Notes under the pieces: generated by a model
The model's input: only the letters and a program-made list of their open reading frames with translations
Told to the model about the DNA's origin: nothing
Databases searched by the model: none
Part shown: positions 4,946-47,933 of the stretch, one piece after another
Position numbering within the stretch: the first letter of the stretch is position 1
How the letters are laid out: every line of letters starts with the position of its first letter
Made by a program: the position numbers and the translations under genes
NCBI GenBank assembly: GCA_019054805.1
Contig: JAHQIY010000005.1
Location: forward strand, 1,657,501-1,721,500
Length of the DNA stretch: 64,000 bases
DNA from: Brachionus manjavacas
Lineage: Eukaryota > Rotifera > Eurotatoria > Ploima > Brachionidae
Direction: 5' to 3'

Positions 4946-5579
4946 TAGTTTAACTATAAGAAAGCAAACTGGCAATTATTCAGCGAGATTTTAAATTCTC
5001 AAATAGTGAATATCACTGAAAGTTCCCTCACAATAGATCAACTAAATGATAAAATTAGAGAAAAAATTTTTTCTACTTCACATAAAAGCATTCCTTATCA
5101 TTCTCAGAAAATCTACAAAACCAGTCTTCCCCCGAACATTGTTATTCTGATATAAGAACGCAGGAAAGTAAGAAGAAACTTTCAAAAAACTGGCTGACAA
5201 AATCTCAAGAAAAAATTTAATCAACTAACATTTGAGTTAAAGGCCTCTTTAAAAATATTCTGGAATCAAAATTGGTTTGATTTTATTGAGAAAATGGGAA
5301 AAAAAACACTGACAAATAGACCATTCTGGAAAAAAATAAATAAATTTAGATCAAAAAAAAGATCAAATTTAATCCCAAATTTGTTTTTAAATTGACAAGG
5401 AATTCAAAATTAATGAAGAAAAGGGAAAATGCTTTAGAGAACTCCTATCTTCAATATTTAGTCCTAATTCTGATTTAATAGATCTTGATAAAGATTTCGA
5501 AATCCTTAATTCTTACTCTGAATTCTTTAGAAATTATGATCAGTCTAATTTTAATGATCCAATTTGCTAAAATGAATTA

Positions 5580-24000: not shown

Positions 24001-26579
24001 TTTCCGAGTATCTAACCAAAGCATCAAAATGAGTATCTTGATACAAAAAACCATTTTTGGATAAGTTTAGACACGTCCTGCTATCAAAAAACATTGATAC
24101 AAATTCTGAAAATACATTGAAAGGCAACGGAGAAAATAACTCCCATGAAATTTTATATTCCAAGTCTGACCATTTATCACTCCATTCATCCTTAATCATT
24201 TATTTTGTTAGATAAATAAATATTTAAAATATGTTCTCTAATTTCTTACAAAAGCTGAATCTTCATTTTTACTCAAGCAAAAAATTGGAATTATTTCCTC
24301 TTTATCAGTGACAATTATAAGACTATTTTCTTTTAAAAATGAGATTAAATAATCAAATATTTGATCAGTTGGACACAATTTTTCTAATTGTTCTCTGAGT
24401 TCATCTTTATTCCAAACTGGGATATCTGTGCCCAAAATATCATTCAAATGTGATTCATTTGTCTCTCTATTTGACAAAATATCAAAGACACTTTTCAGCC
24501 AAATTAAATCAGTTATTATAAATTCATTTTTTCGTTATAGAAAAAACGACCACGAGCACTCTGAGCTCTGGCGTACCTCAAAGAAAGCTGCTTGAATTGG
24601 TTCGATTGGTATTCTTTTAGCTTTTCATTAGCCAAAAATAGTTGATTCAGTTCGTCAATTGTTAAAATAGGCTTATTTTTTAAATTAATAGATTTTGTAA
24701 TCAATTCATCTATTTCTTTTTCAGAGCTTTCGTACTTATCTCCATAATAAAGATTCCATTTGAACATATAAAAAGAATTGTCGAACAGATATGCTCTTAA
24801 AGTTTTATATGATGATTTTGGTATAGAATGAAAATCTTGATTTTCTGACGAAAAAATTTGAAGCTAAAAAAATTTAAAAAAATTGTTATTTAATTCAAAA
24901 AAATCTTAATTACCATTTTCAAATTAAAACAATAATTATAAACGCTTAGTACCCATTCACATAGCAGAGACGCTGCCTCAGATATTTCGCCAATGTATGT
25001 AGGATTGAAATTTTGCATTTGTATATATTCTTTTAGGTGTTTGAGTTTGTAATCATTCACTGTATTTAAGTCAAAATTTCTAAGTTGAATTATGAAATCG
25101 TTTGAATTGATTAATTTGGCAAAATTTTGATAATTTGGTGGTCTGGCGAATAAATAGCAGATAGCTTCTCCGACTGATTGTACTGCAGCTGGTGGTGCTG
25201 TAAATCCTTTCATACTGGCTAAGTTTTTTCGATTTAATTTGTTCATTATTTCTTCGATTTTTTTCAAGTTTTCACTTAAAAAATTTAAAATTTTTTCATT
25301 CTTTGGTCTAATTTTTGTGCATGTAAATCGATCTGGTACATCGAGATTTTTTTCTGGGTCTATCATTCCAAAATTTAAAATATTTAGCACAAGATCTATA
25401 TGTTCGTTTAAATTTAACTGATTGCTTAACTCAATTTGAGAATGAACATTTAACTCCGAAAGTTTCCTAGATAAATAATATTTTTTTTTTAAATTTACGA
25501 TTTTATTTTGTCAAAAAAAATACTTCAAATAAGTGTCGATTGTTTTCTTTAATTTTTTTTTAATTTTATTCAGACTTTTGTGCAATTTGTTGTGCAATTT
25601 TTCTATCAAATTTTGGTCACTTTGGCCAACACCAAGTACAAGAATTCCACGAGGAAGAATATTTTTTGCCATAATCATGAGCAAACGTGATATAATGGAA
25701 TTAAGTGTTTTTTCTTCATTTTCACTAGTATCATAGGTTAACACAGCCAAATTTCTTTCAGAGGTAAACAAATCTGCAAGGGACTTAAACAAATTTTTTT
25801 TTATTAATTCATAGAGAATCTAACAAATTATGTATTTTACTTGATTGCATTCAAAAATATTCAAAAATTTGTTTTTTGAGCTCTTTAATTTAGAATATCT
25901 AAAAAAAATCTGTGATGGAAGATTAGCTATTGATTTGTCAATTTTTTCAGTTAAATTTGGGCTAAAGTTATCTGAATTTATGATTACACACTTAGCGTGA
26001 TCAAAAAGATGCTCTATGTTTTAAAATTTAGTATATAATTTTGAATTGTTTTTAAAGACATCTTACCATTTATAGATAATGATTCTGAATTGTAATTTAA
26101 AGACACCATCAAGCTTTCAGATATCTTTGGACAACATGATAAAAAATTGTTCAACTAAAAATAGATTAAAAGTTTGAGCTTTCATTTAAATTAGAAATTA
26201 CTTTTTCTGATGGTAAACTAAATAAATTATTATTTTGAATTTTATTTAAATAATGTAAAGCCCATATTGATATATTTGAACATCCGTTTAATATAAAATT
26301 ATTCGGTATTTTTGCTTTTAGGCTTTCACTTCCAACAGAAGTTTGATGCAAATTCCAAAAAAAAAAATCCGTAACATTTTTTGTACCTGATAAATCAAAT
26401 TTTCCCTCTATATAATAATCGAATTTATTTAATATGTCAACATCTACAAGATTGTTTCGAAAGAAAATATTGTCGATCTGATGCTCAATTTTTAATGAAT
26501 CATTATCACTTTCTTCTGAAACTATTTGCCGCACACTACCAGCATCATTGTTGGGAATTATGTCAGAAGTGTTTTCCAT
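11226..26579 (-). CDS. ROCO gene A: dynein-stalk-like/COR-like/MBT/LRR-EF/Roc-COR-TIR protein, frameshifted
   Basis: Nineteen exons, 5' to 3' on the minus strand: 26579-26202, 26154-26067, 26013-25841, 25783-25524, 25466-24914, 24863-24250, 24190-23995, 23947-23805, 23759-23690, 23634-23295, 23260-23080, 23032-22774, 22716-22534, 22484-22396, 22342-21929, 18543-16894, 16846-16685, 14808-12960, 12076-11226. Every junction has GT..AG and the phase found in gene B. Without its defect the protein would have about 2817 residues. The Roc GTPase, COR and TIR domains are near the C-terminus. Exon 6 lacks one T (six T at 24527-24532, seven in gene B), which truncates the product at roughly 600 residues, before the MBT, LRR, Roc and TIR regions. 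The gene is therefore either recently inactivated or carries a homopolymer sequencing error. Roc-COR proteins are GTP-regulated scaffolds and TIR domains signal or cleave NAD; the cellular role here is unknown. Confidence 0.82.
12216..12540. mobile_element. Foldback element in intron 18 of ROCO gene A
   Basis: AAATATGGTAAATTTACC at 12216 onwards is repeated inverted at the right end (GGTAAATTTACCATATTT, ending 12540), enclosing about 280 AT-rich bases without a reading frame. This is a MITE-like structure; the target duplication was not resolved. GGTAAATTTAC words also occur in the small element at 27290. Confidence 0.55.
12960..14808 (-). CDS. ROCO gene A exon 18: COR domain and two TIR-like domains
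   Basis: The first half is COR (C-terminal of Roc): LVINPQWIIDAFAKIVSV, PCLLPETEPEFEWPE, then FDYLPIGLFNRIQVRLYQYG. There follows a degenerate TIR-like segment (FDIMFWYCEQD ... KLVIFGVSDNFSRDS) and then a full TIR: DVFISYCWANSHEA, INAWLDIDNL, VIVACVSDEYVESQNCKLEF, LPIIKAVVG. The Glu in NCKLEF falls where NAD-cleaving TIRs carry their catalytic Glu, by my alignment. Bases 13020-13365 match gene B at all but one position. The donor is CAG/GTAAAA at 12960. Confidence 0.88.
13020..13365 (-). repeat. TIR gene-conversion tract (gene A copy)
   Basis: These 346 bases match 34729-35074 in gene B with a single difference that I can find (T at 13218, C at 34927, an Ile/Val change). On both sides identity falls sharply, including within the same exon. 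The tract covers exactly the second TIR domain. Confidence 0.9.
15472..16142. mobile_element. MITE-like element with about 75-bp inverted ends in intron 17 of gene A
   Basis: The left end (about 15472-15550) and right end (about 16068-16142) are inverted copies: TTTTCTTAAAGAGAATTTTA and ACGAGCTTTCTAAAAATG on the left match, reverse complemented, the right. The interior has no open frame. A 30-base word around TTGAAGAAAAACTTA flanks it as a diverged direct repeat at about 15030 and 16220. Confidence 0.65.
16685..18543 (-). CDS. ROCO gene A exons 16-17: LRR, EF-hand, LRR and Roc GTPase
   Basis: Exon 16 (18543-16894) starts with a Cys-containing helical region (GRCYYCFLADY), then leucine-rich repeats (LEIDDQNFFLHLENLIYLKL, KLEKLKSFSF), a canonical EF-hand loop (DSNSNGYLESDE, with ligands at 1, 3, 5, 7, 9 and 12), more LRRs (TYLETLDLSF, LKNLYSLILN), and the Roc domain. 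Roc shows the P-loop GLGQAGKTS, the G3 motif DFAGQ and the G4-like THID. Exon 17 (16846-16685) completes Roc with FYFVSCTT (G5-like) and ends EKIP at the GTGAGT donor. All GTP-binding motifs are intact, so the G domain was under selection until recently. Confidence 0.9.
19397..20089 (+). CDS. Uncharacterised 230-residue protein nested in intron 15 of ROCO gene A
   Basis: An open frame on the strand opposite to its host intron (18544-21928). The N-terminal 70 residues are polar and acidic, and the rest is a compact-looking domain with INIRLTNTCTIDYFLLGLWY, aromatic stretches (WNIARKFWLTD) and a C-terminal CSNELCKY Cys pair. I do not recognise the family. A TATAAA-like site lies at about 19246 and a short upstream frame (19293-19394) encodes a hydrophobic segment. 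Candidates are a nested gene or a captured transposon gene. The codon pattern and length argue against chance. Confidence 0.5.
   Translation: MSIFKSDELNESLESENDDIKGNTMSQQISNEEKTYLDRDENCLIKRSASLTLNESLISKKQYNPSIDVFFLHVPCWGANFCNNNINIRLTNTCTIDYFLLGLWYSSKLSSKILPCLNNSSSNIKDKLHELINYIEINDWNIARKFWLTDICIINFDLVAEIPTKYNVKIGRRNKLVISTFGNEFEFFFDYLFHLQKFEVVKKCSNELCKYQSVLPISHFYFEKQDDDIF
20740..21855. mobile_element. Large foldback element with nested inner palindromes, intron 15 of gene A
   Basis: Arms at about 20740-20913 and 21680-21855 are inverted copies; shared words include ACAAAATGTATCCAATGTTG, AATATTGCAAGCATTTTC and GAAATAGAACAAGTTTAG. Inside lie a second inverted pair (21492-21520 with 21637-21665, GTAAAGTGAATTTCAAAAAC) and a third (21517-21529 with 21544-21556, AGAACATTCAGTA). 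There is no coding frame between the arms. This looks like a composite MITE/foldback. Confidence 0.72.
21929..23759 (-). CDS. ROCO gene A exons 9-15: linker and MBT region
   Basis: Exons 9-11 (23759-23690, 23634-23295, 23260-23080) code a Cys-containing region (CNVCDLKF) that I do not recognise. Exons 12-13 (23032-22774, 22716-22534) form a diverged MBT repeat: LIDHYLEARDRKKSNIFTTA, then VHVKENSVLVHLTRANCDYW and LDLRPAGW. Exon 14 (22484-22396) starts a second MBT-like unit with FEWSEFLKKNSYKAVPFDLF. Exon 15 (22342-21929) continues with SGMDLSEFKG and a region unique to this pair. In the family, MBT repeats bind methyl-lysine through an aromatic cage; the cage looks less complete here than in gene B, so function is uncertain. 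Confidence 0.7.
23805..24863 (-). CDS. ROCO gene A exons 6-8: first COR-like region, with frameshift
   Basis: Exon 6 (24863-24250), exon 7 (24190-23995) and exon 8 (23947-23805) give winged-helix-like sequence that parallels the downstream COR domain: FIITDLIWLKSVFDIL resembles VIIDPQWIVNAFANVV, and WSDLEYKISWELFSPLPFNV resembles the COR stretch ending YDFLPIGLFNRI. Exon 6 has lost one T in the run at 24527-24532; the frame opened at 24863 therefore stops at 24516, and the correct frame resumes only in the next ORF. Positions 23851-24768 are almost identical to gene B, introns included. Confidence 0.75.
23851..24768 (-). repeat. Gene-conversion tract over exons 6-8 (gene A copy)
   Basis: These 918 bases match 45182-46100 of gene B across exon 6, two introns, exon 7 and part of exon 8. 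I find one intronic substitution and one T deletion (run at 24527-24532). Identity ends abruptly just past the ATGTTCAAATGG codons at the upper edge and inside exon 8 at the lower edge. Confidence 0.9.
24914..26579 (-). CDS. ROCO gene A exons 1-5: N-terminal region and dynein-stalk-like segment
   Basis: Exons 1-3 give an N-terminal region with LFWLL/FILNGCS-type hydrophobic words shared with gene B and a cysteine-bearing CCPKISESLMVSL word. Exon 4 (AVLTYDTSENEEKTL ... ILVLGVGQ) has the feel of the second half of a degenerate small G domain, which is only inference. Exon 5 matches the dynein heavy-chain microtubule-binding stalk: MKGFTAPPAAVQSVGEA, then a spaced FIIQLRNFDLNTVNDYKLK, KEYIQMQNFNPTYIGEIS and ASLLCEWVLSVYNY. 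In dyneins these correspond to the K-P-P turn of coiled-coil helix 1 and the helices up to the LCxWVxA.xxY stretch. No AAA+ motor is present. Confidence 0.72.
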
Positions 26580-27917: not shown

Positions 27918-27960
27918 TTGGATTCAAATAAATTAAAATTTATCATCTAAATTTATTAAA

Positions 27961-31821: not shown

Positions 31822-32681
31822 TTAATATATATTCAATTCGACTCTTTCCAATTCGTTGATAAGGGTATTTTTTTCTTGCTCTATTGGGTTAGTTGTAAAA
31901 TTTTCCTGATCACTTAAAATTTCGGCATCAGTTTGCTCACTGTGCTTTTTACAGAGCCATAAAACTTTAGCATTTCTCAATTCACAGTTTTCCAGTCCTA
32001 AAGGTTTATTGTTCCAATTCCCACTTAGCCATGAAAGCGAAAAGAATCTGTCATTTTCAAACTCCTTGATAAAAACGTTTCTAAAACTATTGTAGGAATC
32101 GCACAGATCAACTGATTCATTTATTGATTTTTCCATTTCGCTGAACAATTTGTTACCTTGATCTGTTAAAAAAACACCTAATTCATTTGAAGAACTACCA
32201 TTTTTTAGAATTGTAATCAGTCTAACCAAGAAAGGGCAAAAGATATTGAGCAGTTCTGGGAGAATAACGACACAATCCGAAAAATGCCAAGATTCTTCGT
32301 GTTCACACATTGGTCGGATACATGGAATCAATTTTGAGCTAACAGCATTTTCTTCACTAATCTCTGATTTTTCTGAATCAATTTTCTCAGCGCCTATAGA
32401 AACGCTTTTAAAATTCTTTATGAACTTGAGTTTAGATATTTTGTCTTCGTCAATAAAATCAATGCAAAACAGTCTGGGATATGAGCGAGCGGTTGATACC
32501 ATGCTTGAAAATTGAATCAGCTGACGCAAAAATTTGCGCTGAGTCAATTCGTAAAGCTCTTGAATTGCTGTATTGTTTGATTCAATAATAATATTGCTTT
32601 CACTAGACTCTTCAATTGTTTTGGTCTTGTTGAATTTTGAAAGCGCTTGTCGAACATGCTTTAAAAGTACTGAATATGCCT
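31822..32681 (-). CDS. ROCO gene B exon 19: Cys/His-containing C-terminal domain
   Basis: Joined from acceptor TTAAG/AGGCATATT (QYETQ-EAYSVLL). It contains KFLRQLIQFSSMVSTARSYP, then CIRPMCEHEESWHFSDC and VLWLCKKHSEQ, matching gene A exon 19 in every Cys/His position I compared. The stop is at 31822. The function of the domain is unknown. Confidence 0.82.
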
Positions 32682-35600
32682 CTTAAAAAAAAATTAAGTT
32701 TAAAATTAAAGAAATTTATTTTTTAATTTGAATCCTATAAAGAATATGGGAAAATAACGCAACAAGAGCTTTATTACCAAAGAGGAATTTCAATTCTTCC
32801 TTCAATTTGATAAACTTTTGAAAAATAGTTTTTAATATATACAAAACATTTTTTTAAATCATAACAAGTTTTTTTTATATTTTTCATTTTTCTACTTAAA
32901 TCTTAACGTTTTAAATTTTTTAAAGAAAAAATGTGGTCCCATAGAGACTTGAACTTCGCCCAAAGAGTCACTGTACCAAACTTTTTCTTTCAAATTTCAA
33001 TAAAAATTGATTGATTATTTACCTTTAGATTTAATAAAGTATGTTAAATCTAAAAATGTATCTCTATATTAAATTCATTTAAAAATAAAAAATTATCATT
33101 ATCTCATAATTAAGACAATCAGAATTAAAAAAAATATTAATCCTTTCTGTACTTTTTGTTCTTAATCAAAATACTATTTTATATGGTCCTGTTTTGATAA
33201 TTAAAATAAAGATTTTAATTAATCAATAGTTTAAATATTAATTTAAAATTTTTAACATCTATTTCTCTAACCTTCAGCATACCTGAATCCTTAAACCATG
33301 AAATATTTCTGATAATAATATTCAAATAAAGTATAAAAAGTACACAAAGTACGGAAAAGAAAAGGGTTTTTTAAAAGTTTAATTTAATTGTCTTAGTGTT
33401 ATAGTAAATTTACATCCCAGTAAATATACATATTTACTGGTCGATCGGTAAAAGAGTGAAATTTAGAAAATTTAATTAAAGCATGAATGTTTACTGGTTA
33501 GATTACATAATCACGGTCTCACAAGTTATTTTCTGTAAATTTCTATATCGACTTAGTAAAATATAAATTTAAATTTTCTTAGAAACTAGTAAATATGCCT
33601 CAATCCGAAAATATAGATAAAAAATTGAACAAACTCGAGTTAATAAATTCAAATTTTACGTGGTACGCAAAGCACAAATAATAGAAGAAGCATCGGTCTT
33701 GAAATCTAAAACAAGTATGATATAAGCATTGTGCATGGTATAGCAAGGCATCCACAATCTCAAGGTGGTGTTGAAAGACCAAACCCTAATATAAAGAAAA
33801 TGCTCGCTACTCGCTTTTTTTTTTTTTAATAAATATTGAGACACATATTCTGAAGGTGCATTAGCTCGGTACAGAAAAACAAATAAATAAATAAAATAAA
33901 TACATGAATGCGTGAAATTAAGTCAACTAAATGGTTAATTGGTGTCAAGTTTGTCCACTTACGTAAACTTATATTAATGACTTATATGCATATTTACGGG
34001 AATTGTAAACTTACTATAGCATTTAATTATATAACTGATTAAATATATAATTTAAAGTATATCAAAATTAAGACACTTGATCAATAAATGATTATTTACG
34101 ATCAATCGGCTTTTTTATCTATCTCCGAGAGTAAAACTACAAATTTTTTAGTCATTTATTTTAACTTCTTTTGGCTTTTGTTTAACCTTTGTTATCTCCT
34201 TATCTAAAAAGGAAGTTCAAAAGCTTTTTAAGTTGATACTTTCATTATCTTGAAAATTTCAAGATATTTAAAAAAAATTGAATCTTTAATTATTCTTTAA
34301 AGCCCAAAATTATAAACTGTAGTCAGAAATTTAAATTTCAAGTTTAACAATCTCCATCATATTCTATAAATCTCAATGATCTTTATTATGGATTAAAGCT
34401 GGTAAATTTCTTTATAATTCATGAGGAAAATTTTGTTTACTAATTTATGTTACCTGAGTTTAAATGTCTAAATTAATAAAGATAAAATTTCTGAGACCAC
34501 GGCTAAGGACACTATAGAAAATAATCTTTTTTGAATCATTATTAATTTCTAAATTATACCGTTTTGAAAAATAAATATAAAAAAGTGGATAGTCAACCTA
34601 ATCATGACATAGAATTTTTTTTTTGCTTTTAGGTAAAATAAATGAGAAATTGTTAGTGAATTTTTTACCTTGAGTTTCATATTGAAAATTAACTTCAGGA
34701 TAATTACTTCCCAGAAAAGCAATCTCATTTTTGCGCCATTCATTACCAAGGCCGACTACGGCTTTTATAATAGGCAGTTTGAGTGATATGTGAGCGAATC
34801 TAAATTCTAATTTACAATTTTGTGACTCGACATATTCGTCTGAAACACAGGCCACAATAACTTTTGCCAAATTCATTCCTCTGGTTATCTCGCCAAACAT
34901 CTGAGTTGTCGAGTCCAAATTGTCAACATCTAGCCATGCATTTATTCCATTATCAGCAAAAAATTTCACCAAACTTCTCGGATCTAGCCAGCCGAGACTT
35001 TTATTTGTGCCCTTGGACCCCTTTTTGATAGCTTCATGTGAGTTAGCCCAACAATAGCTTATAAATACATCAGGCTCTTTCACTTCAATATCTTTTTTGG
35101 CTCCGTTACTAATTATCTTTTCTATAGATTCTATTAAATCGAGGATTTTAGATTTATATCTTTTAGGATTTTTCATTATTACTCGAAAATCAGCACATAC
35201 AGAAGCAAAATAAGGATTTTTAAGCCATTCTTTGTTACTCATCAGTCCAAATTCAACCAACAAGTAAGGTTTTTTAAAAACATTCTTCACTATTTCAAAA
35301 ATTTCCAAACATTTCGAATCAACCGCAAAATTATCTGATATACCTAATATTACCATTTTTGCTTGTTTGATAATTTTAAATACAGTATCAAGTTTTTCGC
35401 TCGAAGGATCTTGAGTAAACCAAACTTTTAGCCCCTGAGACTCAAGATCCTTAATAGCATTTAGTGGGTTTACAGAATTCTCTTTATCTAGATTGCAATC
35501 CGCTTCGCAATACCAAAAAATGATATCATATTTAAATGCACTTTTTTTAAAATTATTCAAATCCCGAATGGTGTATTCTAAATTCATTTCCATGTAATGA

Positions 35601-38600
35601 GTATTATCTATTGGCATCATAGACATCATTTCTTGTACAGATATTACGTGAAAATATTTTCTGCATTGCAAAAACTGAGCCCTCATTTCATTAGCCCTTT
35701 TGAGCAGCTTTGAACTAAATAGATATGGTTCGCTTGTCTGAAGCTCCATACAATCTGGACACGGAAAACTGAAGTCATATTTTAGACCATTGAACGAGTC
35801 ATTTATCAATGTCTCTATTGTTTCGTGAATTACGAACACAACATTCTCTGGCTTAATACCTTGGACCTTGATTTGAATTGAAAGAGTGTCTTTAGACTGT
35901 GTTACTAATGCAACATGTGAATTTTTTTTCAAAAAAGATCCTTTTTTCCATATAAAAGAACTGTCGCCATATTGAAACAGTCTTACTTGAATTCGATTGA
36001 AAAGTCCAATCGGTAAATAATCAAATTTATAATTAACTTTAAATTGTTTTATTTTTATTGAACTTTTTACATCTAATTCAGGCCAGTTAAAAGTTGGCTC
36101 AGTGTCTGGTAGTAAACATGGTACTATGCTCATTTTTTTTTCTGGCACAGGAAAAGTCAGATCGAATTCTTCGGTCAATTTGAGCATCCATGCATGCAGA
36201 TTTTCATCATAGTCTCTCCATATCTCCTTAATTTTATCATGTGTCAGCTTTCCATTTGAAATGCTTGTTTGCTTAACAGAGACAACATTGGCAAATGCGT
36301 TCACAATCCATTGAGGATCGATAATAACCTTGTCTTTTAAGCTCTTATTTTCGAAATATTGCAGTGAGCCTAAATCGTTCAAAAATTTTACCGCTTGCAA
36401 TATTTCTTCCGAGTCGTATATTCCGTTTTCTTCGGCAAATGGCTTCAAATCCTCGAACGAAAGAATCGATCTATTGCTAGATTGTTGTTTTAAGCTTTGT
36501 TCAAAATAAAGCCAGGCTTCCTAAAATAATAAATTTTAAAAATTTTGAACATTCATTTATCATATTTTAGGATGACTTACTGGAATTTTTTCGTTTATAT
36601 AGCTTTCGTTGAGTGTTTTTTCAAATAGCGCTTTTTTTAGTTCTTCAACGCCTTGTCCTGTAGTACAGGAAACAAAAAAAAAACCAGCGATATCTTTGAA
36701 CTTTGATTTTAGATATTTTTCATCAAGAACATAGTTGAAAACCTTCAAAAACATTAGTTTAAAATTAGAAACTTTTTCAAAATTATATGGAAACATTTAA
36801 TAGATAACAAAATGGCGACCAGTTTTACAGTTTTTATTTAAGCTGATAATGTCTGACAGGATTATAGTTCATCTTTTTAATCATTCAAATGTAAATCTTT
36901 GAATTTCAAACGGTTTTTTCAAGAAAATAATCAAACTTGGCCAAAAGTCATTAAGTCAAAGTCAAGTCAAGTCAAATGACTTAAAAAAATAATTTTTTTT
37001 TTCGAAAGATGTAGCTTTTTTTTTTAAATTAAATGTTGATGTCGAACACTTAATGTTAATTTTTTCTTTTTTTTGATATTTAAACTCAAAATTAAAAAAA
37101 AAAAATTTAAAGTCAAGTTAAATGACTTTTTTTAAAAAAATTCAATAAATGAAAAAAATTCAAAAGTCAAGTCAGTGACTTGACTTTTAAAAGACTTGAA
37201 AATTACTTTTTTTTTACTTTTTCCGAAGTCTGAAAATAATGCAAAATTTTAATTGTTTAATGATAAACTATTATTTACATTTTTTTTCTAGCAAAAATAA
37301 AAGATTTGAAAAACTTTATTTTAAAATCTTCTTTACATAAATTAATATTTCAAAACCTGTTGGTGTCTTATCAAAATAATAAAGAATTTTTTTTCTAAAT
37401 TGATTTTTTCTAAGATAATGCAAAACTTTCATAAAAATTAGATTTTTCTGTCAAAAAAAATTTAAATTAGGAAAATTCAAAGAATAACTATTCAGGATAA
37501 TAATTTACAAATCTCATAATAATTAAAATTTATTTTATTACTCTTTTCATCTAATTAACCAGATTTTCTATTCCAAAACTCAGCTTTAGACTCCGTTTTG
37601 CCACTGACTTTGGTTCGCTGATTTGTTTAAACAAAGTGATTCAGAATTATTAATCCTAAAATTAGCCTTAATTTGACAAAACAAGCTTTGCAACGTCTTT
37701 CGCTTAGTCAAACTATTTTTAATTTTAATTATATTTTGATATTTTTTTGAAACTAAACAATTCTTATTTTCTTGCTTTAGATAATTTAAATTATTTTTAA
37801 AAAATCGAATTAACAATATTCGATTACTTGGTCTATTAAGAGTTCTGTCCATGACTGTTTAAACAAAAAATAGTTATTTTTTCTAATTTTCAAAAGCAAT
37901 TTATTATTTTTTAATCTAAGTTTTTGATTGCATCACCATAAATACGAAAACAAAAATAATTTTTTGTGATTAAATCTCAATTCTCTTTTTTTATTTTTCT
38001 TGAGGTAGAATAAAAAGTAATTAAATTTAAGATTTCTTTTCTAGAAATCAAATGTTAAATTAAATAATTTTGTACAAGAATTATTTAGCGAATGCGATCA
38101 GTGATGGCGCTACGTTATAGCGAAGTGAGGCGATCTCCACACCATCTTTTGAGGTATTGTGGCGCCGCTATAGAAGAAAATTGTTAAAAATTTAAATTAA
38201 AAAAGAAAAATTTGTTTTAATCTCTTCTTTTTTCAGACAATTATAGAAAAAAAATAAAACAAAATTAAAAAACAAAAACCTTCATTTTTTGATATTTTGA
38301 AAATCCAAAAATACATGTACATGTGTACTTAATTATGCAATATTTGATTAAAACTTTTTATTTTATTAGAAACTAGTGGCTGAATGTTTTTGATCAATAA
38401 AATAAAAATCTATAATAAAGCAATACGATTTTTTTTTAAATGCTCCTTTTTCTTATCTAAAAATATTTGTGTTTTCTTAATATTTTCGGCGGATAAAAAA
38501 TGTATTTTGTTAACTTAACTGCTTTTAAATTAAGTTAATTTCAAACGCGGAGGTAGAGAGAACTTTTTCTGCTCTAAAAAAGATAATAAATTGTCTCCGA

Positions 38601-41600
38601 AGCAGGACAGGTCAAGAAAGATTAAATGAAATAAGCCTCATAAATAATGAGTCATCTGAATTAAAAGAAATTGACGTTTACAAAACTGTAGATATTTTTG
38701 CTAACCAAAAGAATAGAATACTTAAATTTTGTTATATATTTTATTTAATTTTGTTTAATTAGTTAAATTTTTAACTTTTTAAACTATGTTTTGAATTTTG
38801 TAAAAAAAAATAACATTTTTTTAAAAGACTGATTTTAAAGTTTAATTACTTTGTCATTTAGCTCCCCTCAACTCACCAATTCTATCTCCTCTTCTTTGGT
38901 CTTAAAGTTCGTCGCACCATTTTCAACTTTCTGGCGCCGCCACTGAATGCGATTACCAAAAAAGATTAGGAAGCTCAGTAAAAGCTTAGTAAATACTCAG
39001 TAGATTTATATTACTAAAATAAATGAAATTTTGCGATACATCTAAATTCTTCAAACTATTTACTAATTTCGATAAATAATAATTTTGGTCAAAACTAAGC
39101 TGAAACTAAATTGGAAAAAAGACCATCGCTTCGAATGCAATGCAATCAGCTTTTTATATTTTTTTAAATATTTTTAATAAAGAGAATTTAGATTATTCTG
39201 AAATTTTGGTGTTAATCAATATTATTAAATATAATAAGAATTTTAAAAAGGTATTTATTAACATAAAATCGCTGAAAGAATTTAGTGATAAAATCAGAAA
39301 TTAAAGATAATAACTCGCCATTTTTAAATAGCTAAAGTTACCAGTAAAATCTAACATTTAGTAGATCAGAACTTGAGCTTTCAAAATGTATTGCTTTAAT
39401 ATCATATAAATTTTACAACATATAGTTTGCAATAAAAGCATGCGAGGGATTGTCACAATTGAAAAATTGAAAAATTGTATTTTTGGAAATTTTCCAAAAT
39501 TTGATTTTGATAATGGAATCGTTGAAGTTTGGATTGCGTACAAGTTTTGAATCGACTGAACCTTAAATTTCCTAATATTTTTTTGTATAATTACAAACTC
39601 TTATTTTGTTTTTTTTTTTAAATAATTTCAAGAATTAATTACAGAAAAATATTGAGAAAAAAATTTAAATTTAAAGCTTTTTTTGTAGTTTTCAAACTAG
39701 TCGAAATTTTATATCAAAATTAAGCTTGTTTAATAAAAACCCGCATATACAGATTAGAAAATAAAAAAACAATAAATACTTGATCAATGTGAGTTCCAAC
39801 AATAAATATTGGCGCTCCAGATGCATGAGACGATATACTATTAAGCCAAAATTCTAAACCAGCATATTCGCTTCCTGATCTTACATTCCAAACTAATAAA
39901 TAAACGCCTCTGGAACTCAAAAAAAATTGATGTGTATTGTAATAGACACTTTGACCGGCAAAATCCCACATTGAATAAGTAAGAGTAGACCCATCTTCCA
40001 AATCAATAACCCAATCATCGATTTTAATTCCATCAGTCAATTCAGGTGCATTTTCATGATCGAAACCTCTTAATGACCTTAAAAGAGACGTTTTGCCCGC
40101 TTGACCAAGGCCAACTACCATTAGTTTTGTTCTTTTTAATTCAATTGATCCAGTTAAAAGACGTCTTAAATAAGTTTGTATTGAATGAATGCCTCTATGA
40201 ACAATTTCTCTTGGCGGAGTTGTTAATGAGATACAATTTGTTAAGTCAAGCTTGCTTAAAGGTAAATTTGCCACTTTCGGACTTAAGTATTTTAACAGTA
40301 TACAATTTTTTAATACAAAAACGTTCAAATTTTTTAAATTTTCTATTTCGTCCGGAATCATTTCAATAGATTGAAAACTCAAGTTCAAAATTTTTAAATT
40401 GTTCATTTGAAAAATTTCTTCTGGTAAACTTGGACCTAAACGACAATATCTTTTAAATAGAAATGCATTTACTTTTATCATTTCTTTAAAATCCAAAAAA
40501 CCATTCGCATTCGAATCAAAATGACTAAAAAGCTTAGCAGCCTGATGTTCGCTTATTAATTTAGAAGTGTGTATTTCTTTTTTGAAATTTTCAGCGCTAA
40601 TTAATGAATTACTTTTTCCATATTTGTCCATGTCTATCAACGGAATAGCTGACAATTTAAGCTCCTGAATTGACTCCGGATTCAAATCAAAAAAGAAATA
40701 ATCAAAAGAAGACTTGGAAATTTTCAAAGTCTTGACTGAATTTGGCAAACTTATAATTATCTTATTATTTGCTGGTATTTCGACATTCTTAAGCTCTAAG
40801 ACTTCAAGGCTGTCCATTTTCTCAAAAGAGACATTTTCTAAATTAATTATATTGTTGAAAGAAAGCATTTTTAAACCGCGCATCTCAAGGAGTGAATCGG
40901 GCAAAAGCTCAAGATCGTTCTGGATAAGCTTAACTTTGGCTAAAGAGCTGAAAAGTTTGAAAAAAACGGGAGAATCAACAGTAACCGGAACGTTTATTAA
41001 GATAAGGCTCGTTAAATTAGAGTATTTTTTGGCAAAACTAGAATCCAGATTGAGAATGGTGTCTGAATCTATGATACCATACCGAATAAAAAAACTAGAG
41101 TAAGCACCAAATTCCTCGTCTGATAAAATATCAATTTTATTTGCGCATCGATTATTTTCGTTGGCCATATGACAGAAATAGCACTCTGCTAAGTTTGAAT
41201 TTTGTGAATATTTTTGAAATTTAAAAATTTTTGATTTTTGCAGATCAGTTGGCACAAGTTTTAGGAATTTTTTGATATTACATTCAAATTTTTGTTCTGA
41301 CATGTGTCTTTCGTTGACAAATAGTCCCAAGTAGTTAATTAATTGTCGTAGAAAATTTCGAATATGTTCACTTATCTGATGTTCATCCAAATCTTCATTT
41401 TGATCAATAAACAGTCTGGAATTTTGAGGAATGATTGATGTGAACTTGAAAAAGTGAAATTTTAAAAAGAAAAAAATTAGAAAAATTAATTTACTTGTGA
41501 GAACAAGATCAAATAGGCAGACACTATGATAAGTACTAGGTCATTTGAATCAAAAATCTTTTTATTGAGTATAATTCCTTCAAAGCCTAGCATGTGAGCG

Positions 41601-44600
41601 TATAAAGTTTGATGGTCATTTGACTTGTTAAAACAGCATAAATGCAAATTACAGTCTTCTAATAATTTTTTTCTGTCAATCGATATTATATTATTAATGG
41701 TTCGGGGTAAAGGAATGAGACCTCGGGTTGGAATGGCTGCAGCTCCAAGAGTTGTTATTATGTTATTTTCAATTAAATGTTCCAAATTTTTATCTATAAA
41801 TTTTGTGAGATTTTTAATTTTTAAGCTGGTGTTTGGCAAATTCAAACATGAGGTCAAGACTTGTTGGTTTTTGTTACCTTTAAAATCCGATAAAGTCATT
41901 CCAAATTTTTGATCCTTGAAAATAAATACTGCTTAAAAAAGTCTAAAATTTCAGATTTCAATTAAAATAAAAAATAAGAATATTTTAAATAGTATAATAT
42001 GCTTGTTGTTAATGATTTATTTTTGATAAAAAAAAGTTTACAAAATTGGAATAAAGTATTTGAATTTAATTTTCCAAGTTAAAACCTGAAATCTATTGTA
42101 CTTGAAAAATAAAATTATTAACATATCTCTGAGGCAGCTGGTAATGACTTGAACTTTTGATTGATAAATATAGTGTTCTTAATAGTTTTAATTTTCTACA
42201 TGATTGACAAAAATTTCCACACAATTTTGTTAGAGTTTGTGTAAGATTTAAGTATCTCGTTTTATAGACTAATTATTAAATTAATAAAATAAAAAAAAAG
42301 TATTTTACGGTAATTTAGTTACCAAATTTTTTTTAGGTTTTTGAAATGAGTGTGGGAATTTATGACAATCGATCAATAATTTATTAATCAGAGAAGTATT
42401 CAAACAATTTCTCGTTTAAAGCTTGCTTTTAAATTTTTATTAATTTAATTTATCATTTATTTAAAAGACTTTTTGGAACTGTTTTTTATTGATTTTCCTT
42501 TGATGCTGATATAATTATTTGTTTGAATTTAGAAAAAAAAAATTTCTTCTGATTAAAAAATTTAATTTCTGCTCAATTACCAGATATTTGTAATCTAAAA
42601 ACTTTATTAGACACCCATGGTTTATGGTCGCAATGCGTCAATTGCATTTTAAATAAGATGCTTTTAATATGTAAAATACGATATTTTCTAAAAAATTATA
42701 ACTCATTTTATTTAGAAATAATTTTAAGAACTCAAGAACTCGAAATGCATCGTGAATTTTGGAATAAAAATTTAAAATTATCAGAATGAGTTATTTCACT
42801 TTCAAATTTATTTTTTGTTTTTTACTCCAAAATTCACGATGCCTTGCTTTTGAGTTCTTAAAATTATTCCTAAATAAAATTAAAGTTAAAAGTTAAAATT
42901 TTCTAGAAAATATCGTATTTTACATAGCAAAATCGAAATAACTTAAAATCTTTGACTTTAAAACAAGTCTGATAATTATTTTATTCAATCTATTCTGATT
43001 TTTTCAGGCACTATCACAGAAAAATTATTATTTTAAAATAAGTAATTAAGTAAAAAATTTAAATATATAAATTTACTAGAGTGAAAATATCAAAAGGTAC
43101 TGCTTTAGCGTTTTTCTCAAGCAAATAATTCTCCCACGTAAAGTTCCTGCTTCTATCGTTTTTATAGTCTTTAATTAAAAAAATCGAAGATTTTATTCAT
43201 TGTATTCAAATAAAATATAAAAGCTACCTATCGGAGCATCAAATTTTATATTTCTCAAGTCATAATCAATCAACCATTTTTTCTCTTTGATTTTTCTTTG
43301 ATGATACTCAGACCAGCCAACTGGTCTCAAATCAGAGCTTTGAATTTCAGCCCAATAATCATAAGTAGTCGCCCAGCCGTCAAGATGAATTAATACTAAA
43401 TTTTCTCGGATGTCAACTTTTAAAGTTTTAAAGTAAAATTATTCTTATTTTGCTTTATTTAATCAATTACCAATTGTAGCAGGAGAAATTAAATTTGGAT
43501 ATTGTCGATCTATTGCTTCAAGACGATGATTAACTAATGGATTCAGATCATTTTTGGTGTATTTTTTTGTTATTATGGAATTGTTGTATTCAAAGCATTT
43601 GGACAAAAAGTTTGTATTGACGTCTTTTGAAAGATTTAAAAACGAAAACATTGGAATCAAATATTCATGGGTGTATTCAATTTCTAAAATTTTTATCCCA
43701 TTTAAAGCAATTGTTGCTGCATTGTGCTCATTTGACTAAAAAGTAAATAATTTTAATTTATATTTTTAAAAATTCTATTAAGATTACAATTCTTTTTATT
43801 TTTATCAATATTCTATCTCCTAACTTTATTTGATTGTTTAAATTTGAATTTACTGACAAAAGAGAAGATTTAACTCTAAAAGCATCAGATTCTTGGTCAT
43901 ATTTGATTTCCATTCTATTTAATTCGATCCAGATTGCATTTACTTCGGCTGAGTCATAACTTTAAATAAAAAGTATTTAATTTTTAATTTAAACTTTAAA
44001 AATTAAAACTAAATTTTTTTTCTAAATTACCAAGTGAGTATTAAAAATATTTGTTCAGCATTGGTCAAACTGTTTTCAATGAATTTGAATGAAAATATTT
44101 CATTATTTTGGTCAGTAATCACAACCTCTGGCTCCAAAGCAAAAACCAAATTTCTATCATCCGATTCATTTGTCCCCCAAAATAAAGGAATTTTAGTTTT
44201 CATTACATTTATTTCGTTTAATTTGGTATACAACGTAAAAAAGGCGTTTTTAAGTTTGGTTAAAAAATCAAAATCTAAGGCACAGTCAAGACACTGTTGT
44301 CGATTCGAATCAATTAATTTAAAATTATGTAAATATTTTCCAACTTGAGTTTTGTAAAAAAGCTCGTCATTCTTGCTCATCAAATCATAAATGGTAATTA
44401 TGTCATCTTTTAATTAATGAAAAAAATTAACCAATTTAATTATTAGGTAAAAAATTAAAACTCGAAATTTCAATAGAAACGAATTCATGTACAATTATTT
44501 GGATCTATTTTCAATCTGAATTTTTAAATATAAATATTTTATTTCAATAAAATTCTCTGTTTTCGTTTATGTAATAAAATTTGATTGAAATTGAATCTAT

Positions 44601-47600
44601 ACTCTTTGCAAATCACTTCTAAATAACTGTTCTACACACAGAAAAATTTATCTACACTTTTCCTTATTTTAAATTTTTATATAAAAAGTTAAATTTTAAA
44701 TTTAATTCCGAAGTAGTTTGACTTAAAATAAAAGTAAAAATATAATTCAGTAGTATTATATATTTTTTTTTTCAATTAAAATTTTGATTACATCAAGTCT
44801 AAACATTTTAACTTTTTTCAGATTTTTTCATATATTTTGAGTTTTTTTCATTTCGAAAGAAAATGAGTCTGTGTTTCAATGACTTTAAATGAAAAAACCA
44901 TTTCTCTTATTTCCCTAAAAGAACTTTTGAACGAGTCAAGGTAAAATTTTTGTACACAACGTAACACAGTTTAATAGTTAAGGTATAAAAACGCAATTTG
45001 ACCTACCTGAATTGTCTTTCAAAATTTTATATTCACCATTTTCGATCTGAATTGGATGATTCAATTTATAATCTTCTTGTTTTAACTTAATTTGAAATTT
45101 AAATTATATGATCAAATTTGTTAAAGCGTATTTACTTTATGTGGTACATGATATTTAATCAATAAATGTCTCAAGTAAATGTAAAAATTCATATAAATTG
45201 TCTTGAAGTGGTTCAAAAAAGATTTATCAGTTAAATTAAAATATCTCTCTGGGTCGAGCATTCTAACAGATAAATAGACTTTAAAAAAAATCATTAAGTG
45301 ATAGTAAATTAAGAATAAAAAAAACCTTCTTTTTCCGAGTATCTAACCAAAGCATCAAAATGAGTATCTTGATACAAAAAACCATTTTTGGATAAGTTTA
45401 GACACGTCCTGCTATCAAAAAACATTGATACAAATTCTGAAAATACATTGAAAGGCAACGGAGAAAATAACTCCCATGAAATTTTATATTCCAAGTCTGA
45501 CCATTTATCACTCCATTCATCCTTAATCATTTATTTTGTTAGATAAATAAATATTTAAAATATGTTCTCTAATTTCTTACAAAAGCTGAATCTTCATTTT
45601 TACTCAAGCAAAAAATTGGAATTATTTCCTCTTTATCAGTGACAATTATAAGACTATTTTCTTTTAAAAATGAGATTAAATAATCAAATATTTGATCAGT
45701 TGGACACAATTTTTCTAATTGTTCTCTGAGTTCATCTTTATTCCAAACTGGGATATCTGTGCCCAAAATATCATTCAAATGTGATTCATTTGTCTCTCTA
45801 TTTGACAAAATATCAAAGACACTTTTCAGCCAAATTAAATCAGTTATTATAAATTCATTTTTTTCGTTATAGAAAAAACGACCACGAGCACTCTGAGCTC
45901 TGGCGTACCTCAAAGAAAGCTGCTTGAATTGGTTCGATTGGTATTCTTTTAGCTTTTCATTAGCCAAAAATAGTTGATTCAGTTCGTCAATTGTTAAAAT
46001 AGGCTTATTTTTTAAATTAATAGATTTTGTAATCAATTCATCTATTTCTTTTTCAGAGCTTTCGTACTTATCTCCATAATAAAGATTCCATTTGAACATA
46101 AAAAAGGATTTATCAAATAAATAATCAGTCAGATTTGTATTAGAAATAGTGGATGCTGTTGATTTTTCTTCATTTCCTGCCTTAAAATTAAATTAGAAAA
46201 AAAAGACTTTTAAATTAAAAAATTACTGCTGAGCCATAGTTGTAGACTGAATGAATCCAATCGCATAGAACTGATGCTGGACGTGAAAAGTTGGCAATTG
46301 TATCACAATCAAAAGCAGGCATCTGAATGTATTTTTCCAGATTTTTCAACTTATAATCATTTATTAAATTTAAATCAAAATTTCTTAACTGATCTAGAAA
46401 ATTATTTGTGTTCAGGAGCTTGACAAAATTTTGATAGCTTGCTTGCTTTGCGAAAAGATAGCACATTGCTTCAGCTACATTTTGAACAACTGATGGAGGA
46501 GCTTTGAATGATTTGAGTTCAGCTAGATCGTTTTCGTCTATTCTGTTGGAAATTTTTTGAATTTCATCCAAATGACATTTTGTGTTTGTGGCGTTGTCAA
46601 CCAATTTCGGTTTGATTATCAAAAGCTCATCAAAAGTTTTGTTATTCGGTATTACACCATAATCAATAATTTCTAAAATTAATCCTATTTTTTCGCTCAA
46701 ATTTACCAATTCACTCAACTCAAGTTGTAAATTAAAATTAGGATTTTGAATATTTCTTAAATAATTTTTTGGTAAATGTTACTTAAATTTTTTCTAAATT
46801 TACTTTATTTGAGAATCGACTAATTTGTTTAAGAATTTCTGAATTTTGTTTAGCGAATGGACTATTCTTTTTTCAATGTATTCAGTGACTTTTTCATTGT
46901 ATTCACCAAGTCCGACGATAAGAATTCCAATTGGTAAAATGTTTGTACCAAGCACTTGTAATAAGCGTGATAAAACTGAATATTTTAGACTTTCTTCTTT
47001 ATCGGTTAGATCATAAGTCAGAACTACAAAGTTTCTTTCGGTCAAAAAAATACTGCAAAATGACTAGGAGAAAAAAATAAAGAATTTAAATAAAGAAATC
47101 TTTTTGGTAACAAAAAATTTGATCAAATGATGACATTTTTTACATTTGAAAAAATCTTTGTTTATGGTCAAAATAATTTTAGAAATGATTAAGAATTTTT
47201 TATACTTGTGAACATTGGTAAATATTTAAAATCTGGTTTGTTTCATCTTGTAGCTGAACTGCCGTGAAGTAACTATTATTTGCTTCGTTATTTTGGTCGT
47301 ATTGAGTAAGTGCTTCGACAATTTTAGGGCTAAAGGAATCTGAGTTAATTATTATACATTTGGCTTGGTTGTAAACACTCCCTTTGAAAAAAAAAACCTA
47401 TTTTATACATAAAACTTTTGTAACTGCTGCATTTAACCCTTGAGGTGCTTTAGTTAACTTATTTTTATAAAAAAAAAATATTGCCTACTATCTTTAGAAA
47501 AATTTTTGAAGTCATAACTGAGTGAGACCATTAGGGATTCGGAAATTCTCGGACAGCACATTAATTTCTCATCTAGCTAAAAAAAAAGAAAAATTGATTT

Positions 47601-47933
47601 GATTTTTCCATTTATTTAATTTACTCTAGATGTATGGTCATTGAAAAAACTCAAACCAAAATTTTTAAACAAATAATGAATAGTCCAAATTGAAATGCAA
47701 GAACATCCATTGAGTAAAAACTTATCAACACCCAATTTGAAACTTTGGTTAGCTGGAAGATTAAATTGCAAAAGCCAAAAAAGTAAGTCTGTAGCTCTAT
47801 CGAAACCTGAGAAATCTAAAATACTAGCATTCTCAACTTCCATCTGTTCCAACAGTGCTGTCCAATCCAGTAATCCATTTGGATAAAAGAAATTTTCCGA
47901 AAGATCAATAATTTTGATTTTATGCTTATTCAT
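31822..47933 (-). CDS. ROCO gene B: intact dynein-stalk-like/COR-like/MBT/LRR-EF/Roc-COR-TIR protein
   Basis: Nineteen exons on the minus strand: 47933-47625, 47576-47489, 47381-47206, 47063-46804, 46755-46227, 46180-45581, 45521-45326, 45278-45136, 45085-45007, 44406-44031, 43959-43788, 43735-43471, 43416-43228, 43168-43077, 41914-41495, 41444-39780, 36742-36581, 36520-34669, 32681-31822. The total of 8433 coding bases (2810 residues plus stop) keeps frame throughout, and phases agree with gene A at every junction. Approximate residues: degenerate G-like region up to 278, dynein-stalk-like 278-454, first COR-like 454-767, linker 767-976, MBT 976-1160, LRR/EF/LRR/Roc 1298-1907, COR and two TIRs 1907-2524, C-terminal domain 2524-2810. 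It is probably a cytosolic GTP-regulated scaffold with TIR output. Alternative splicing, and fusion of two transcripts by my model, cannot be excluded. Confidence 0.88.
33731..33814 (+). pseudogene. Retroviral-type integrase core fragment (relic)
   Basis: The frame reads VHGIARHPQSQGGVERPN then IKKMLATR. HPQSQG.VER.N is the hallmark around the catalytic Glu of rve-family integrases from LTR retrotransposons and related DDE elements. Only about 28 codons are left, with stops upstream, so it is a fossil fragment without function. Confidence 0.75.
33848..33905 (+). mobile_element. 3' terminal fragment of the retrotransposon A family
   Basis: TTCTGAAGGTGCATTAGCTC and GGTACAGAAAAACAAATAAATAAATAAA match the terminus of element A (7165-7220). 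This dead-on-arrival copy retains little beyond the tail and confirms the AAATA-type 3' repeat of the family. Confidence 0.8.
34669..36742 (-). CDS. ROCO gene B exons 17-18: end of Roc, COR and two TIR-like domains
   Basis: Exon 17 (36742-36581, 162 bases, the same length as in gene A) finishes Roc with FFFVSCTTGQGVEELK. Exon 18 (36520-34669) contains COR (VIIDPQWIVNAFANVV, PCLLPDTEPTFNWPE, FDYLPIGLFNRIQVRLFQYG), a TIR-like segment beginning YDIIFWYCEAD and containing KMVILGISDNFAVDS, and a TIR domain DVFISYCWANSHEA ... INAWLDVDNL ... VIVACVSDEYVESQNCKLEF. The putative catalytic Glu is retained in the second TIR only; the first lacks the SxxC-x2-E pattern. Confidence 0.9.
34729..35074 (-). 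repeat. TIR gene-conversion tract (gene B copy)
   Basis: Partner of 13020-13365 with one visible mismatch (34927). The tract covers only the second TIR domain and ends sharply on both sides within the exon. Confidence 0.9.
36743..39779 (-). other. 3.0-kb intron 16 of ROCO gene B
   Basis: It separates Roc proper from its last 54 codons. It contains a hAT-type element (38099-38945) and AT-rich repeats around 36950-37200 built from GTCAAGTCA/TGACTTGAC words. Open frames at 37586-37852 and 39358-39543 (minus) show no recognised domain and are probably chance. Confidence 0.65.
38099..38945 (+). mobile_element. Internally deleted hAT transposon with 8-bp target duplication
   Basis: The element starts CAGTGATGGCGC and ends GGCGCCGCCACTG, and is flanked by AATGCGAT on both sides (38091-38098 and 38946-38953), the 8-bp duplication typical of hAT. 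Around 38547-38700 the plus strand encodes NAEVERTFSALKKI and LRSRTGQERLNEISLIN, the C-terminal dimerisation domain of hAT transposases. At 847 bp it lacks the catalytic core and is non-autonomous. It sits in intron 16 of ROCO gene B in the opposite orientation. Confidence 0.93.
39780..41914 (-). CDS. ROCO gene B exons 15-16: spacer domain, LRR, EF-hand, LRR and Roc
   Basis: Exon 15 (41914-41495) continues from the second MBT start with FGMTLSDFKG and ends at CAA/GTAAAT. Exon 16 (41444-39780) has a DEHQISEHIRNFLRQLINYL helix, ECYFCHM, leucine-rich repeats (SLEVLELKNVEIP, NLTSLILINVPV), a canonical EF-hand loop DSNANGFLDFKE, further LRRs (NNLKILNLSFQSI), and Roc with P-loop GLGQAGKTS, G3 DFAGQ and G4 THID. 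The EF-hand lies between two LRR blocks and has all usual Ca2+ ligands. A lone loop may bind Ca2+ weakly or need dimerisation. Confidence 0.9.
42669..42925. mobile_element. Foldback MITE in intron 14 of ROCO gene B
   Basis: ATGTAAAATACGATATTTTC at 42669 is matched inverted at 42906-42925 and pairing continues for about 100 bases (TTTAGAAATAATTTTAAGAA, CATCGTGAATTTTGGA). A loop of about 60 bases lies between, with no coding capacity. Confidence 0.8.
43077..45085 (-). CDS. ROCO gene B exons 9-14: linker and MBT repeat
   Basis: Exons 9-11 code an unrecognised region with CLDCALDF. Exons 12 and 13 join in phase 1 into a good MBT repeat: NHRLEAIDRQYPNLISPATI, then ENLVLIHLDGWATTYDYW and SSDLRPVGW. 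Typical MBT repeats read GMKLEAVD...P.L...ATV...LLIHFDGW...YDYW...DI.PVGW, so the aromatic-cage positions (the D and the W/Y/W cluster) look preserved. Exon 14 begins a second unit with FTWENYLLEKNAKAVPFDIF, the usual MBT start. MBT repeats are normally found in chromatin proteins (L3MBTL, SFMBT, SCM), so their presence beside Roc and TIR domains is unusual. Confidence 0.78.
45136..46180 (-). CDS. ROCO gene B exons 6-8: first COR-like region
   Basis: Exons 46180-45581, 45521-45326 and 45278-45136 are intact and in frame. They encode a helical stretch (ELNQLFLANEKLKEYQSNQF), the COR-like FIITDLIWLKSVFDIL, a DELREQLEKL helix, EEIIPIFCL, and WELFSPLPFNVFSEFV, followed by a tail resembling the end of a COR-B half. 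The order parallels the second COR domain in exon 18, suggesting an internal duplication of Roc-COR. The seven-T run at 45858-45864 is the intact counterpart of the gene A deletion. Confidence 0.75.
45182..46100 (-). repeat. Gene-conversion tract over exons 6-8 (gene B copy)
   Basis: Partner of 23851-24768; 919 bases, one T longer. It includes two introns, which elsewhere cannot be aligned between the genes, so selection on protein alone cannot explain the identity. Confidence 0.9.
46227..47933 (-). CDS. ROCO gene B exons 1-5: N-terminal region and dynein-stalk-like segment
   Basis: ATG 47933 opens an N-terminal region with ILDFSGFDRATDLLFWLL and FLLNGCSCISIWTIHYL. Exons 2-4 add CCPRISESLMVSLSY, AKCIIINSDSFSP and FVVLTYDLTDKEES ... 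GILIVGLGEY, which could be a G-domain remnant without a P-loop. Exon 5 (46755-46227) resembles the dynein heavy-chain stalk: LKSFKAPPSVVQNVAEA, FLDQLRNFDLNLINDYKLK, LEKYIQMPAFDCDTIANFS and SVLCDWIHSVYNYG match in order and spacing the coiled coil, microtubule-binding tip and return helix. The K-x-P-P turn and the LCxW stretch are diagnostic in my reading. No dynein motor or tail surrounds it. Confidence 0.76.

Follow-up and report, generated by a model that had tools for sequence, protein, structure and literature searches.

Within a 64,000-nucleotide stretch of the genome of the rotifer Brachionus manjavacas (assembly GCA_019054805.1, contig JAHQIY010000005.1, positions 1,657,501 to 1,721,500 of the forward strand; this whole stretch is referred to here as the window) lies a gene, gene A, that is predicted to encode a ROCO protein with two TIR domains and a putative microtubule-binding domain (MTBD) of the kind found in dynein heavy chains. 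Three paralogs (B, C and D) and two more-diverged relatives, E on contig C15 and H on contig C2, bring the family to six members. We hold the domain architecture of this ROCO-TIR family, as described below, to be very nearly certain. The new element of the family is the dynein MTBD; most of the remaining combination is already known. As to function, we assign a probability of roughly 0.35 to the reading, taken with its whole chain of steps, in which these proteins would act as cytosolic switches of the ROCO type, whose output is TIR and which grip microtubules by a domain derived from dynein.

Structure of gene A

When gene A was rebuilt from its splice sites, 19 exons joined to give 8433 coding bases and 2810 residues with a sole, terminal stop; all 18 introns have GT-AG ends and the phase is consistent throughout. 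An earlier sequence-only reading of this DNA had given the coordinates, exon number and length of the gene, all of which were reproduced by exon joining. Moreover, the single-chain architecture that it put forward, with nearly all of the domains it named, is borne out by exon joining, by Pfam matches and by the paralogs. For gene A, Pfam was searched exon by exon; for gene D, the full-length protein was used (E <= 0.5). Matches above the Pfam cut-off in A or D were dynein MT, MBT, Roc, COR-A, COR-B, TIR and TIR_2, with LRR_8 above the cut-off in A only. Across the family the order is an N-terminal module with the MTBD, a COR-like region, MBT, leucine-rich repeats (LRR) with an EF-hand motif, Roc-COR, TIR1, TIR2 and a Cys/His C-terminus. 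The features are as follows (window coordinates).

31822..47933, minus strand: gene A, whole coding span (exon joining, terminal stop, phases matching three paralogs)
47206..47933, minus strand: exons 1-3, N-terminal region; by eye alone, LRR-like repeats and the beginning of a Roc-like segment
46804..47063, minus strand: exon 4, putative degenerate Roc-like segment without the P-loop lysine (positions by eye)
46227..46538, minus strand: putative dynein MTBD, residues 351-454, within exon 5 (46755-46227)
45136..46180, minus strand: exons 6-8, COR-like region (hhalign to the protein's own COR)
43788..45085, minus strand: exons 9-11 and the start of exon 12, region between the COR-like region and MBT
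43077..43546, minus strand: MBT repeat (residues 1040-1106) and MBT arm (1136-1158), exons 12-14 (Pfam MBT)
41495..41914, minus strand: exon 15, linker after the MBT arm (open and conserved in A-D)
40212..41024, minus strand: exon 16, LRR (41024-40632), EF-hand (40538-40461), LRR (40421-40212) (Pfam)
36599..40136, minus strand: Roc GTPase, residues 1735-1901, exons 16-17, with a 3037-base intron inside (Pfam Roc, E 2.4e-20 in A)
40112-40089, minus strand: P-loop of Roc (P-loop, DFAGQ and THxD-type motifs)
35741..36520, minus strand: COR-A and COR-B, exon 18 (Pfam, E 3.6e-31 and 3.4e-30)
35099..35536, minus strand: TIR1, degenerate (homolog of TIR2)
34670..35074, minus strand: TIR2 (Pfam TIR_2, E 1.8e-13 in A)
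31822..32681, minus strand: exon 19, C-terminal Cys/His domain (Cys/His motifs conserved in all six members)
11226..26579, minus strand: paralog B, in tandem (19 exons, with the frame differing by one base in exon 6)

An alternative read-through of exon 18 of gene A reaches a stop 23 codons on, and a form of the gene without exon 19 is therefore possible. (Note that the 3037-base intron 16 of gene A holds, at 38529-38762 on the plus strand, a fragment that by eye resembles the end of a hAT transposase.)

A dynein-type domain in exon 5

The Pfam family MT, a dynein heavy chain family, was matched with E values of 2.4e-14 by exon 5 of A, 2.2e-8 by full-length D and 3.3e-11 by a 674-residue piece of C. 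A search with dynein profiles had been named beforehand as a check on the architecture, and the match was strong both in Pfam (A, C and D) and in a sequence search of the PDB. The domain was detected in five of the six members, in one of which (H) it lies below the Pfam cut-off. Judged by homology and fold, the exon 5 domain thus appears to be the MTBD of a dynein heavy chain: the ROCO copies are like the dynein tip domain in sequence and fold, and differ from dynein heavy chains in that their loci have no match to AAA_9, a part of the motor ring. That the ROCO MTBD binds microtubules is predicted with even odds.

We considered whether the domain had been borrowed from an adjoining dynein gene, which is ruled out by the absence of AAA_9 matches at the ROCO loci. 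Genome-wide, AAA_9 had 18 matches, none of them in the ROCO loci, and full-length D gave no AAA match. The 26 MT matches listed for the genome comprise the four ROCO copies A-D and 22 others, 20 of which have an AAA_9 match no more than about 3.5 kb away. The other two, L040 (C8:264046-267435) and L042 (C8:2355019-2354174), have an MT match and no AAA_9 match, and by eye resemble diverged dynein-type genes. For a tree of MTBDs, 16 dynein-type stretches were fetched, of which 10 were usable and six were dropped (by the length rule of the script or for want of a hit), giving 15 rows. The five ROCO MTBDs cluster with moderate support (92/84, below the level starred by the tool). L040 is nearest to them, with weak support (80/68).

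The same gene at four loci

When the genome was scanned with one Pfam family at a time, MT, Roc and COR-A occurred in one order at four places, at three of which (A, C and D) MBT was also above the cut-off. Copy C is on contig C5, about 0.66 Mb distant, and copy D is on contig C6. To model C and D, the A and B proteins were aligned to their loci with a purpose-written splice-aware aligner. As a check, A was aligned onto B: 13 of the 19 exons came out exactly as placed by hand, with mismatches at the exon 1 start, the exon 6 start, exons 9-11 and the exon 19 end, and frame shifts were put in at two places, the end of exon 5 (superfluous in the hand model) and exon 6. When A was the query, C came out as 19 exons and D as 20 pieces, both free of stops and of frame shifts; when B was the query, C had a single frame shift, in exon 9, and D came out as 22 pieces. 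Exon 1 of both C and D was placed by an upstream ATG (a putative start), giving 19 exons each.

Intron phases are identical in A, C and D at all 18 introns, and those of B match A at 18 of 18 when the one-base frame difference in exon 6 is read through. Because the 19 exons recur in B, C and D and the phase agrees at every intron, the model of gene A goes beyond chance. Full-length identities among the A-D proteins are 52-65%. Between A and B, Nei-Gojobori omega is 0.13-0.41, below neutral, in those blocks for which the synonymous distance (dS) could be computed; these values are rough, since most blocks are close to saturated at synonymous sites. In exon 5 dS is saturated, with pN at 0.35 versus pS at 0.76. 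The alignment of relative E fell into 32 pieces and that of H into 28, with frame shifts, and for that reason the shared exon structure is claimed for A-D.

Identity between the A and B proteins is 25-68% per exon, except in exons 6-8, where it is 81-100%. A tract of 975 bases at 45149-46123 in A is 98% identical, introns included, to 23818-24791 in B. Given the much lower identity of the other exons at the protein level, this tract points to recent gene conversion, probably in the direction A to B, since the tract, like A, is nearer D than C. The frame difference of B sits within it.

One transcript or two

The C-terminal half of the protein by itself would make a complete ROCO-TIR, and intron 14 of A, at the boundary of exons 14 and 15, is 1162 bases long. 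Both observations would suit a reading in which two genes, an N-terminal one (exons 1-14) and a C-terminal one (exons 15-19), have been wrongly joined. However, intron 14 measures just 53 bases in B, 60 in C and 51 in D, and the same domain order is found at four loci plus H. More generally, at each of junctions 1-17 the intron is 60 bases or shorter in at least one of copies A-D. The intron at junction 18-19 is 883-2329 bases in A-D; this junction is spanned by open frames in the two diverged relatives, a single frame of 956 codons in E that runs from COR via both TIRs to the C-terminal domain (the aligner still placed gaps of 33-66 bases within it) and one of 842 codons in H that runs from mid-COR to the C-terminal domain. 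Because junctions 1-17 are short in at least one copy and the E and H frames span junction 18-19, we reject the split gene, which we consider extremely improbable.

The Roc-COR and TIR domains

Gene A has the arrangement that defines the ROCO family, a Roc domain with a P-loop followed directly by COR; the P-loop lysine is present in all six members. Neither the LRRK subfamily, marked by a protein kinase domain after COR, nor the DAPK type, with its N-terminal kinase, ankyrin repeats and death domain, fits the family: none of these domains was among the Pfam matches of full-length D at E 0.5. (A structure prediction for exon 18 had a predicted local distance difference test (pLDDT) score of 34 and was not used.)

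The second TIR domain proposed in the sequence-only reading holds up, in that TIR1 is homologous to TIR2 by hhalign (96.6%, E 4.8e-10). TIR2 keeps the glutamate of helix alpha-C, which we take to be catalytic, in six of six members, and this residue aligned to a glutamate of the Cat1 and RPP1 TIRs (the alignment used a profile of four TIRs, one from another gene). At the same position TIR1 has I, V or M in all six. We predict, at no better than evens, that TIR2 is an NAD enzyme. For exon 19 Pfam gave no match above the cut-off; in E and H a single open frame encodes its domain together with the TIRs.

The MBT, LRR and EF-hand regions

MBT was the other domain whose profile check had been named beforehand, and here too the match was strong: Pfam MBT had E values of 2.4e-11 in A and 2.6e-18 in D, and D matched an L3MBTL chain in the PDB with E 1.5e-34. 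The region is above the Pfam cut-off in three of the six members, and the searched pieces of E and H gave no Pfam MBT match. Methyl-lysine would be bound by an aromatic cage whose residues we take from L3MBTL1 (D, F, W, Y). Copy D has the full set, C and A each have one substitution (Y to F and F to L, respectively), and B has lost the cage. The suggestion that these proteins read methyl-lysine is plausible for D. Exon 15, the linker, had no Pfam match above the cut-off.

LRR_8 matched A with E 1.2e-6; in D the LRR fell below the cut-off (LRR_14, 0.00085). The EF-hand is below the Pfam cut-off in both (EF-hand_1, E 0.0018 in A; EF-hand_6, E 0.13 in D). Its 12-residue Ca2+ loop is near-canonical in A, B, C, D and E and degenerate in H, and on this motif the protein may sense Ca2+.

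The N-terminal half

Exons 1-3 are conserved in B, C and D and could be aligned in H; they gave no Pfam match (exon 1 of A alone; the region within full-length D). By eye, the order in this half is a Roc without P-loop (exons 3-4), the MTBD and then the COR-like region. The sequence-only reading had described a COR-like region here, and this was supported by profile similarity: using a six-member profile, hhalign aligned exons 6-8 to the protein's own COR with a score of 26.8 over 154 columns (E 0.0081), which was reached by none of 100 shuffles (shuffle maximum 25.7, over at most 63 columns). It was not supported by the hhalign probability of 4.9% or by database searches, there being no PDB match at E 10 (A, C and D used) and, for exon 6, no Pfam match above the cut-off. 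With the four copies only, the hhalign probability was 0.4% and E was 0.17. In control pairs the score was reached by 10, 71 and 36 of 100 shuffles, and because a shuffle in one of these pairs scored 35.1, the score of 26.8 is not decisive by itself. On balance there is moderate support for exons 6-8 being COR-like.

When the Roc-like and COR-like segments were joined, omitting the MTBD, and compared with Roc-COR, one of 100 shuffles reached the score. The Roc-like segment of exons 3-4 compared with the protein's own Roc gave a score that 10 of 100 shuffles reached, which is not significant. We infer that the N-terminal half may be a worn-down second LRR-Roc-COR unit with the dynein MTBD inserted at its Roc/COR joint, an idea that stays conjectural because the Roc-like profile comparison failed. 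Between this region and MBT, exons 9-12 gave no PDB row at E <0.1 (the best, E 0.11, was taken as chance). Pfam found nothing in the N-terminal frame of E or in its exon at the MBT position.

Relation to known proteins

In a PDB search the LRR-Roc-COR part of D matched 4wnr ('leucine-rich-repeat protein') with E 3.7e-45 and LRRK2 with E 5.9e-42. The rotifer protein thus shares this core with LRRK2 and with relatives that we take to be prokaryotic Roco proteins. It differs from LRRK2 in its TIR output, and no kinase was found in full-length D by Pfam.

Closer in domain content are two ROCO-TIR proteins of Aplysia, one with MBT (LOC101848126) and one with an EF-hand (LOC101845043), which form a clade (PMC9334734). 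Compared by description rather than by sequence, they share TIR, ROC and COR plus either MBT or EF-hand with the rotifer family; they differ in that the word 'dynein' does not occur in the sections of PMC9334734 covered here. The 'Novel Gene 1' of sea anemones, LRR-Roc-COR-TIR_2, has the domain order of the C-terminal half, whereas no MBT or dynein part is described for it in the portions of PMC5094078 considered. Trichoplax has a TIR_2-GTPase-MBT protein (PMC5094078) that, again by description, joins MBT with a GTPase and a TIR, and ROCO proteins with a Ras-like domain ahead of ROC, so that there are two GTPase-type domains per chain (PMC4104024). In these the first GTPase is Ras-like, whereas the rotifer protein would have a Roc-like segment without a P-loop; no dynein domain appears in the described parts of the Trichoplax proteins in the passages at hand of the two papers. 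Because such ROCO- or GTPase-TIR proteins are reported from Aplysia, sea anemone and Trichoplax, the C-terminal three fifths of the rotifer protein resemble a known animal kind.

A dynein domain joined to a ROCO or TIR protein was found in none of the matches listed in the open-licence literature, as judged by title and the start of the abstract, nor in the parts of PMC8195603 and PMC6321704 covered here. The whole combination had been put forward as undescribed. This stands for the dynein MTBD, which was not found in print among those matches, and fails for most of the remainder, since ROCO-TIR with MBT or EF-hand, LRR-Roc-COR-TIR and TIR_2-GTPase-MBT have all been reported.

Proposed function

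In the switch that we propose, the MTBD would dock the protein on microtubules or axonemes. A ligand at the LRR, plus Ca2+ at the EF-hand, would free the Roc-COR unit, and GTP-dependent dimerization would bring the TIR2 domains together. These would then cleave NAD+ or nucleate a TIR assembly, with TIR1 serving as non-catalytic partner. Rather unlikely, in our estimate, is a more specific form of this scheme, a microtubule-tethered, GTP-gated TIR enzyme built from two LRR-Roc-COR units. The first unit would be degenerate and carry the dynein grip where its Roc and COR meet, and the second would be live and drive TIRs that cleave NAD+; an immune or damage signal would in this way be read on the cytoskeleton or in cilia.

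Several observations weigh against the proposed switch, beginning with the insignificant score of the Roc-like segment given above. No MTBD is detectable in E, and that of H scores 18.9 bits versus a cut-off of 24. Most of the dynein coiled-coil stalk is absent from the ROCO proteins. Mean pLDDT values for the AlphaFold2 (AF2) models of exon 5 were 74.5, 64.6, 50.2, 36.7 and 35.4, only one of the five being above 70. The five ROCO copies have MTBDs with a net charge of -2 to +2 versus -3 to +6 in ten dynein stretches of this genome; the charge is uninformative because the ROCO values lie inside the range of the dynein ones. The presumed MBT cage is incomplete in A. The TIR profile, which matched SARM1, also matches TLR1 (0.0013) and, weakly, MyD88 (0.24), whose TIRs we take to be those of non-enzymatic receptors or adaptors, and a PDB search with TIR1-TIR2 of D as one sequence gave a single chance row (E 1.7).

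Some of these points would equally fit an ordinary animal ROCO-TIR receptor whose MTBD-like domain is now a spacer, or a binder of some partner other than microtubules. Besides the absence of the MTBD in E and its weakness in H, this reading is favored by the lower A-B identity of the MTBD exon (46%) compared with exons 16-18, which encode Roc, COR and TIR (53-68%). It is also favored by a helix-1 position that is presumably basic in cytoplasmic dynein and is non-basic in the ROCO copies; note that this position is likewise Gln in the axonemal chain that matched best. We consider such a receptor plausible, if short of probable. In a further alternative, the protein would be a ciliary or axonemal scaffold in which a Roc-COR dimer is anchored to doublets through the MTBD, and in which the TIRs are assembly modules with no immune role. 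Against a scaffold stand the conserved TIR2 glutamate in all six members and the combination of LRR, tandem copies and gene conversion, which on general knowledge is more typical of receptors; we judge it improbable.

If the proposed switch is correct, this would be a motorless use of a dynein MTBD in a signaling protein. The purpose served by the co-localization of LRRK2, the Parkinson's disease ROCO protein, with microtubules is debated. (Such co-localization is seen in some circumstances; PMC9758056.) A ROCO family with its own dynein MTBD would offer an independent test case for a Roc-COR switch coupled to microtubules, with a TIR output where LRRK2 has a kinase.

Neighboring and other loci

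Between the two ROCO genes, a single open frame of 780 codons (27937-30276, plus strand) resembles, by eye, a seven-helix receptor with a long ectodomain. Open frames at 4326-6721 and 49440-52898, both on the plus strand, are by eye LINE endonuclease / reverse transcriptase-like. At 9911-10152 there is a 66-base tandem repeat (3.7 copies, 99% matches) within a serine/arginine (SR)-rich open frame.

Elsewhere in the genome, L017 (contig C19:376001-386000) has Neuralized (E 2.4e-34), COR-A, Death (E 1.8e-8) and TIR_2 in gene-like order; the Roc expected to intervene is absent from the list of Roc matches of the genome scan. Proteins of comparable architecture are described from oyster, Strigamia and Aplysia in the parts covered of PMC9334734 and PMC5094078. 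L016 (contig C16:431001-441000) has Roc and COR-A matches after sequence that by eye is ankyrin-like and LRR-like, and is LRRK-like. Finally, TIR_2 matches of equal or near-equal score, four on contig C26 and two on contig C48, are spaced by about 6.46 kb and represent a possible tandem array of TIR genes.

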